Shown piece after piece: positions 27,431 through 27,548 of a stretch of DNA of 64,000 bases. The notes beneath the pieces are model-generated. The model searched no databases. It was given only the letters and a program-made list of their open reading frames with translations, and had not been told where the DNA came from. How positions within the stretch are numbered: the stretch's first letter is position 1; the number at the start of each line of letters is the position of its first letter. A program made the translations under genes and the position numbers. This DNA is from a virus: the IMG/VR virus record IMGVR_UViG_3300021178_000012, positions 1 through 64,000 of that record. One strand, 5' to 3'.

Positions 27431-27548
27431 GGGCAGCGGCGGGGCTCGAACCCGCGACCCAGGGGTAACCTTCGTTCGGCGGCCCGCGAGCGGGCAAGTT
27501 AATGAGCGAAGACTTTGTCTCTTGCTCTGCCAACTGAGCTACGCCACC
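27431..27548 (-). ncRNA. tRNA-like RNA with 45-base enlarged anticodon arm
   Basis: 118 bases. Acceptor GGTGGCG/CGCTGCC (with two G-U pairs), TA at 8-9, D-arm GCTC-AGTTGGCA-GAGC, variable GGGTC and T-arm GCGGG-TTCGAGC-CCCGC are all intact. The anticodon region is 45 bases longer than in a tRNA and cannot form a standard stem and seven-base loop. It contains AGTCTTCG pairing with CGAAGGTT and an inner hairpin GCCCG-CTCG-CGGGC. No anticodon can be assigned. It is far too short for a group I intron. Probably a processing signal or tRNA mimic working with the Y RNAs; a disrupted tRNA is the alternative. Confidence 0.75.

Follow-up and report, generated by a model that had tools for sequence, protein, structure and literature searches.

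Why should a phage carry, directly behind a gene for the ring-shaped, RNA-binding protein Ro60, an RNA that keeps the body of a tRNA and lacks the anticodon arm? The element in question occupies positions 27431 to 27548 of a stretch of 64,000 nucleotides (hereafter the window) from the IMG/VR virus record IMGVR_UViG_3300021178_000012, which comprises 83,579 bases. Y RNAs are the RNAs bound by Ro60 proteins. Judged from sequence comparison, the element is very probably such a Y RNA, a non-coding companion to the phage Ro60, in the unpermuted layout of a tRNA. We refer to RNAs of this kind as tRNA-Ys. Compared with the known bacterial Y RNAs through secondary descriptions, they constitute a widespread, tRNA-shaped and apparently undescribed class. 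The features of the element and its presumed protein partner are as follows.

27431 to 27548, minus strand: tRNA-Y RNA, a tRNA body in which a Y stem replaces the anticodon arm (Rfam tRNA model and independent model R2)
27542 to 27548, minus strand: 5' strand of the acceptor stem, GGUGGCG, with its partner at 27432 to 27438 (tRNA-model fit and covariation)
27549, minus strand: G-1, paired with C73 (27431) in an 8-bp acceptor of the tRNA-His type (enrichment of G-1:C73 in tRNA-Ys)
27524 to 27539, minus strand: D arm, GCUCAGUUGGCAGAGC (tRNA-model fit and model R2)
27464 to 27512, minus strand: Y domain, putatively Ro60-binding, UCUUCGCU ... CUU GCCC-GCUCGC-GGGC CG ... AACGAAGG UUACC, permuted relative to YrlA (template match, model alignment, covariation of both helices)
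27439 to 27455, minus strand: T arm, GCGGGUUCGAGCCCCGC (tRNA-model fit and model R2)
27624 to 29312, minus strand: Ro60 gene of 562 amino acids with TROVE and Ro60 vWA domains (Pfam and solved-structure matches)

The tRNA body is complete. An acceptor of 7 bp (GGUGGCG/CGCUGCC) is followed by U8 and A9, the D arm reads GCUC..GAGC and the T arm GCGGG-UUCGAGC-CCCGC, and pairing in all three arms is perfect. The Rfam tRNA model RF00005 spans the whole element with 37.2 bits, compared to a gathering score of 29 (E 3e-4 in 64 kb), and places an insert of 54 nt in the anticodon arm. An earlier note, made from the letters of the window alone, had proposed a tRNA-like RNA at just these coordinates, its acceptor, D and T arms intact and the bases at 8-9 and the T loop kept. 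This is correct, with the minus strand to be added. The enlargement of the anticodon arm by 45 bases that it noted likewise agrees with the distance of 68 nt between the D and T stems, which is about 23 nt in an ordinary tRNA. The window contains a single match to the D-arm/T-arm pattern at this spacing, whereas none of 100 shuffles contains any. ARAGORN does not call the element; the only tRNA it reports in the window is a tRNA-Asn at 27216-27289. An anticodon arm (5 bp, 7-nt loop with U33) is absent, and no excision restores a canonical one. Since it has no anticodon arm, the element as it stands is predicted to be unable to decode.

What takes the place of the anticodon arm is, with strong support from sequence comparison, the stem by which a Y RNA binds Ro60. 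The insert shares with RNAs at many Ro60 loci an 8-bp helix, a CUU / CGA internal loop, a GCCC/GGGC helix and the motif UUAYC. The pairings proposed in the earlier note, AGUCUUCG/CGAAGGUU and GCCCG-CUCG-CGGGC, are essentially this Y stem. A stem with such a conserved internal loop (GGGYCGA / ACUUrCCC), a structure known to be bound by Ro60, is also found together with UUAYC in animal Y RNAs, the nematode stem-bulge RNAs (RF01656) and the Deinococcus Y RNA, but these are hairpins without a tRNA body.

The closest relation is to YrlA (RF02553), which likewise joins a Ro60 stem to a T arm, an acceptor-like stem and a D arm, lies beside Ro60 in bacteria and phages, and has been proposed as a tether. 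The Rfam consensus of YrlA runs from the 5' Ro stem through the T arm, a loop-closed acceptor and the D arm to the 3' Ro stem, an arrangement likewise described in PMC8394870. In the window, the order is acceptor, D arm, Y stem, T arm and acceptor, and the insert consists of the 3' Ro strand, a CUCG loop and the 5' Ro strand. Against the YrlA consensus, the window RNA aligns with a score of 19.5 as it stands and of 31 once it is rotated at the Y loop, where the best of 30 shuffles reaches 14.5 and random rotations average 25.9; the same rotation improves the similarity in 54 of 60 relatives. As the YrlA-like order appears only after circular permutation, and the score rises on rotation, the element is, as far as its sequence tells, a circularly permuted version of YrlA. 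Whereas YrlA ends in its Ro60 stem and has a loop-closed acceptor, the tRNA-Y has an open acceptor with true tRNA ends and a Ro60 stem closed by a tetraloop. The YrlA model itself does not match the element at its gathering score of 69 bits, the best overlapping match being 18 bits at 27500-27638. This match spans the neighbouring hairpin Y1 (see below) and the tRNA-Y; like a further match of 14 bits in the window, it straddles neighbouring units and was not counted as evidence.

To what extent is the element part of a family? At gathering scores, Rfam revealed no relatives of tRNA-Y layout in the first 17 Ro60 loci, which is why a scanner of our own and covariance models were developed. Ro60 loci were gathered from viruses and species genomes, and 165 were scanned. 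They contain 66 non-redundant tRNAs with big inserts, distributed over 41 loci, and all 66 lie on the strand of Ro60. Shuffled loci yield 4.7 such tRNAs per pass, and 0.33 with a perfect acceptor. Carriers include phages, genomes titled Sorangium, Polyangium, Byssovorax and other Myxococcota, and furthermore Chloroflexi, Armatimonadetes, Planctomycetota, Halobacteroidaceae and Desulfuromonadales. A search for direct DNA similarity in phage records gave matches confined to the tRNA arms.

A single template (8-bp helix, ..CUU, GCCC-loop-GGGC, CGA.., second helix strand, UUAUC) fits 55 of the 66, the window included. The covariance model R2, built without the window, scores the window element at 76.9 bits (E 3.3e-18). 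When helix strands are exchanged between sequences, pairing falls from 7.1 to 5.6 of 8 positions (standard deviation 0.1). An alignment of 81 members with 79 distinct rows, fitted to the model, is paired in 96.2% of its cells, compared to 68.2% after shuffling and 42-48% after sliding. Among the 79 distinct sequences, 26 of 28 pairs vary on both sides, the covariation score is 0.775 versus 0.218, and the acceptor helix covaries as well, with 98.6% pairing.

The family is tightly linked to Ro60. In the window, the Ro60 gene lies directly upstream of the element on the same strand, at a distance of 75 nt. Its product matches Pfam TROVE (E 9e-51) and Ro60 vWA (E 3e-61), and solved RO60 and Deinococcus Rsr chains over nearly the full length (E 8e-122 to 9e-106). 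Independently of Ro60, viral records were searched for a D arm and a T arm separated by 50-80 nt, and at least 120 stretches showed this pattern. Among the records found by this tRNA-arm pattern alone, a TROVE gene is present in seven of eight with a Y-type insert and in none of twelve with another insert (p 1e-4). In 96 genomes of Polyangium's class, tRNA-Ys occur in 10, TROVE in 13 and both in 9 (p 5e-9); where both occur, they share contig and strand. With a Ro60 gene adjacent and a Ro60-type Y stem common to dozens of Ro60 loci, the role of a Ro60 ligand, one of several suggested in the earlier note, is strongly supported at the level of sequence. Matches to YrlA at E <= 1e-4 were obtained in 23 of 28 Ro60 genomes without tRNA-Y, but in 5 of 19 with tRNA-Y (p 2e-4), although none attains the YrlA gathering score and the same threshold also gives matches in 6 of 14 control genomes. 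Given this distribution, tRNA-Y and YrlA seem to substitute for one another.

Some loci reveal more than one tRNA-Y. Locus L247 (1740-2640) carries four in tandem upstream of a proteobacterial Ro60, with nearly identical bodies and four different anticodons. Polyangium genomes possess a second pair with a divergent Y stem, namely L293 9433-9555 and 9701-9826 (G001:C22) and L294 9375-9775 (G002:C86). About 6 kb downstream of this pair in G001, the same strand encodes a divergent TROVE protein (583-aa frame), which suggests a second co-evolving pair of protein and RNA.

How did such RNAs originate, and do their relatives decode? In 24 of 55 relatives, where 0.2 are expected, a canonical anticodon arm (5 bp, U33, R37) remains once the Y stem is taken out, and because of these arms the class probably arose by insertion of the Y stem into tRNA genes. 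The acceptor ends differ markedly from those of ordinary tRNAs. C73 occurs in 27 of 62 tRNA-Ys, but among the ordinary tRNAs of these loci in 2 of 136 (p 5e-14), and 25 of the 27 also have G-1, the pair G-1:C73 being present in 2 of the 136 ordinary tRNAs. Of 13 further tRNA-Ys from the class sample, four carry the pair, three of them at one locus. All these counts ignore kinship. G-1:C73 is the identity pair of tRNA-His. It is present although GUG is absent among the tRNA-Y anticodons read, and tRNA-Ys of Ser and Tyr type have no long variable arm. The window element combines G-1:C73 with the missing anticodon arm. From these sequence features, tRNA-Ys look unfit for decoding. The view of the earlier note that the tRNA elbow is under selection but decoding is not agrees well with the covarying acceptor, D and T arms, with C73 accompanied by G-1, and with the armless window element. 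We give about even chances to the fuller account, namely that tRNA-Ys are an undescribed, widespread class of circular YrlA permutants which arose when a Ro60 stem entered genuine tRNA genes, and that 40% of them gained G-1:C73.

As its most likely function, by analogy, the element would be a guide or tether of Ro60 that presents a tRNA elbow. The same has been put forward for YrlA, which is proposed to recruit PNPase via its tRNA-like domain (PMC8394870, PMC7790460). A tRNA-Y would be co-transcribed with Ro60, and its tRNA-like ends would be trimmed by tRNA enzymes, with RNase P acting on the 5' side. The outer face of Ro60 would then bind the Y stem, while the exposed elbow may dock a tRNA-binding partner and gate the access to the Ro60 ring. 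This partner would be PNPase, as in the published model of Ro60, Y RNA and PNPase, or else a tRNA enzyme of phage or host. The pair G-1:C73 would take away the unpaired discriminator base and thereby keep most synthetases, HisRS excepted, from charging; it may either block charging or invite HisRS. By the same analogy, we infer that the element may tether PNPase.

Several observations weigh against this picture. Tethering of PNPase is established for the Deinococcus Y RNA and YrlA only. The window element is among the few members without an anticodon arm, and its minimum-free-energy fold differs from the tRNA-Y fold. Folding energy alone gives no preference to its cloverleaf (z -0.7) or its Y stem (z -0.26); such folding misfolds the neighbouring ordinary tRNA-Asn, too. 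As thermodynamics does not favour the cloverleaf, the structural support is comparative. Here, the exchange of helix strands is the cleaner of the two tests, since it does not depend, as the covariation alignment does, on a fit to the model.

Other explanations have to be weighed against a Ro60-bound Y RNA. If the Y stem were an intron, its excision and the joining of the exons by RtcB or a phage RNA ligase would deliver a functional tRNA and a free Y hairpin. This would account for the perfect anticodon arms left after removal in the 24 relatives and for the use of just two insertion points, the 5' anticodon stem and the position right after U33; an unrelated insert of about 45 nt occupies the same sites in other phage tRNAs, and the window encodes an RNA ligase of family PF09414. 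However, splicing to a normal tRNA, considered in the earlier note, does not apply to the window element, where no excision gives a canonical arm. The relatives moreover violate identity rules, with C73 in Cys- and Ile-type members and no long variable arm in the Ser and Tyr types, L247 combines near-identical bodies with four anticodons, and G-1:C73 separates tRNA-Ys from ordinary tRNAs. An Rfam cmscan of the region revealed no intron family at E up to 10, protein-spliced archaeal-type introns having no Rfam model. Altogether, we consider an intron improbable.

A decoy or competitive inhibitor of anticodon nucleases, i.e., a tRNA body without an anticodon loop to cleave, is quite improbable as the primary role. 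Cleavage of tRNA is a battleground of phage and host, the idea has been put forward for the tRNA-like domain of YrlA (PMC7790460), and the RNA ligase in the window would suit it as well, but it explains neither the conserved Ro60-type stem nor the linkage to Ro60, and many relatives retain the anticodon loop. As a secondary role alongside Ro60 binding, it is compatible with our findings. The missing anticodon arm, the silence of ARAGORN and the adjoining bona fide tRNA-Asn might finally suggest a functionless tRNA gene in decay, with an insertion acquired by chance. With perfect pairing in acceptor, D and T arms, its score of 76.9 bits and covariation in every helix of the family, the element does not appear decayed, and we regard this explanation as very improbable. 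The processing signal envisaged in the earlier note found no support.

The predicted Ro60-binding Y RNA in tRNA layout also differs from the other RNAs that share its elbow. The element resembles a tRNA (RF00005) in its acceptor, D and T arms, U8 and canonical T loop, and passes the gathering score, but it deviates from ordinary and intron-containing tRNAs by the lack of an anticodon arm, by C73 with G-1 in the absence of a His anticodon, and by an insert outside the known intron families. With tmRNA it has the tRNA elbow and the replaced anticodon region in common; yet the window gives no tmRNA match at the Rfam cut-off, and the element, with about 118 nt, is far shorter.

tRNA-Ys offer a testable origin for the tRNA-like domain of bacterial Y RNAs, i.e., that a Ro60 stem was put into tRNA genes, with those members that still keep an anticodon arm as intermediates. 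If this is true, tRNA-Ys are missing links that show the tRNA origin of this domain, and Ro60 carries an open-ended tRNA handle which is unchargeable or charged by HisRS only. As Ro60 plus tRNA elbow is built in two opposite permutations, the combination itself, rather than a particular RNA end, can be argued to be selected. Unlike in the closed YrlA, the open tRNA-like ends make RNase P action, CCA addition and charging testable. Genome annotation has overlooked tRNA-Ys, or may list them as odd tRNAs.

Around the element, the following further RNAs are predicted.

27554 to 27617, minus strand: Y1, a candidate for an ordinary Y RNA hairpin, located between the tRNA-Y and Ro60 (fold z -2.6; similarity to the permuted insert)
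27294 to 27428, minus strand: Y2, candidate Y RNA whose loop contains several hairpins, AUUGGGUCGAUGUUCGUUGGU...ACCAACG..CACUUACCUAAU (fold z -3.1; 5' strand near-identical to Y3)
27217 to 27289, minus strand: ordinary tRNA-Asn(GUU) between Y2 and Y3 (ARAGORN; RF00005, 62.6 bits)
27148 to 27213, minus strand: Y3, candidate minimal Y RNA hairpin (RF01656, 43.5 bits, gathering score 38; fold z -3.1)

RF01656, whose cut-off Y3 exceeds, is the family of the nematode sRNAs ceN72/74, and nematode stem-bulge RNAs are homologous to vertebrate Y RNAs (PMC4726728). The rotated window insert shows a modest similarity to Y1 and Y3, matched by 3 and 7 of 1000 shuffles, respectively. In Y2, a Y-type outer stem surrounds several hairpins, one of which is T-arm-like (GUGGUUCGAAACCCAC); it has no meaningful Rfam match and, with no match to the YrlA model, was ruled out as a YrlA.

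A second, unrelated viral class comprises tRNAs whose inserts, about 40-55 nt long, occupy the two positions also used by the Y stem, either in the 5' anticodon stem near 29/30 or directly after U33. The insert consists of a hairpin like GNCYUGUnnnAGRC followed by WUNACAGCAA, there are two or three per phage, and removal often leaves a canonical arm. Examples are L112 (4649-4765, 4862-4977, 5076-5198) and L071 (1800-1918, 2120-2236), as well as L136, L138, L142, L043, L078, L079, and L090. None of 12 records checked contains Ro60. As in the tRNA-Ys, G-1:C73 is more frequent than in ordinary tRNAs (9 of 54, compared to 4 of 347). The inserts possibly represent small phage tRNA introns of a new type, or else they bind a protein.

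In phages, pistol self-cleaving ribozymes were found next to Ro60 or tRNA arrays (L004 2012-2074 and L016 4991-5047; Rfam 60.8 and 56.8 bits). A scan for consensus promoters and terminators yielded no usable sites. The phage of the window also encodes a UvrD-type helicase and a 5'-3' exonuclease. The RNA ligase gene is located at 40814-41674 of the window, and a gene for DpdA (7-deazaguanine DNA modification) at 63166-63942.
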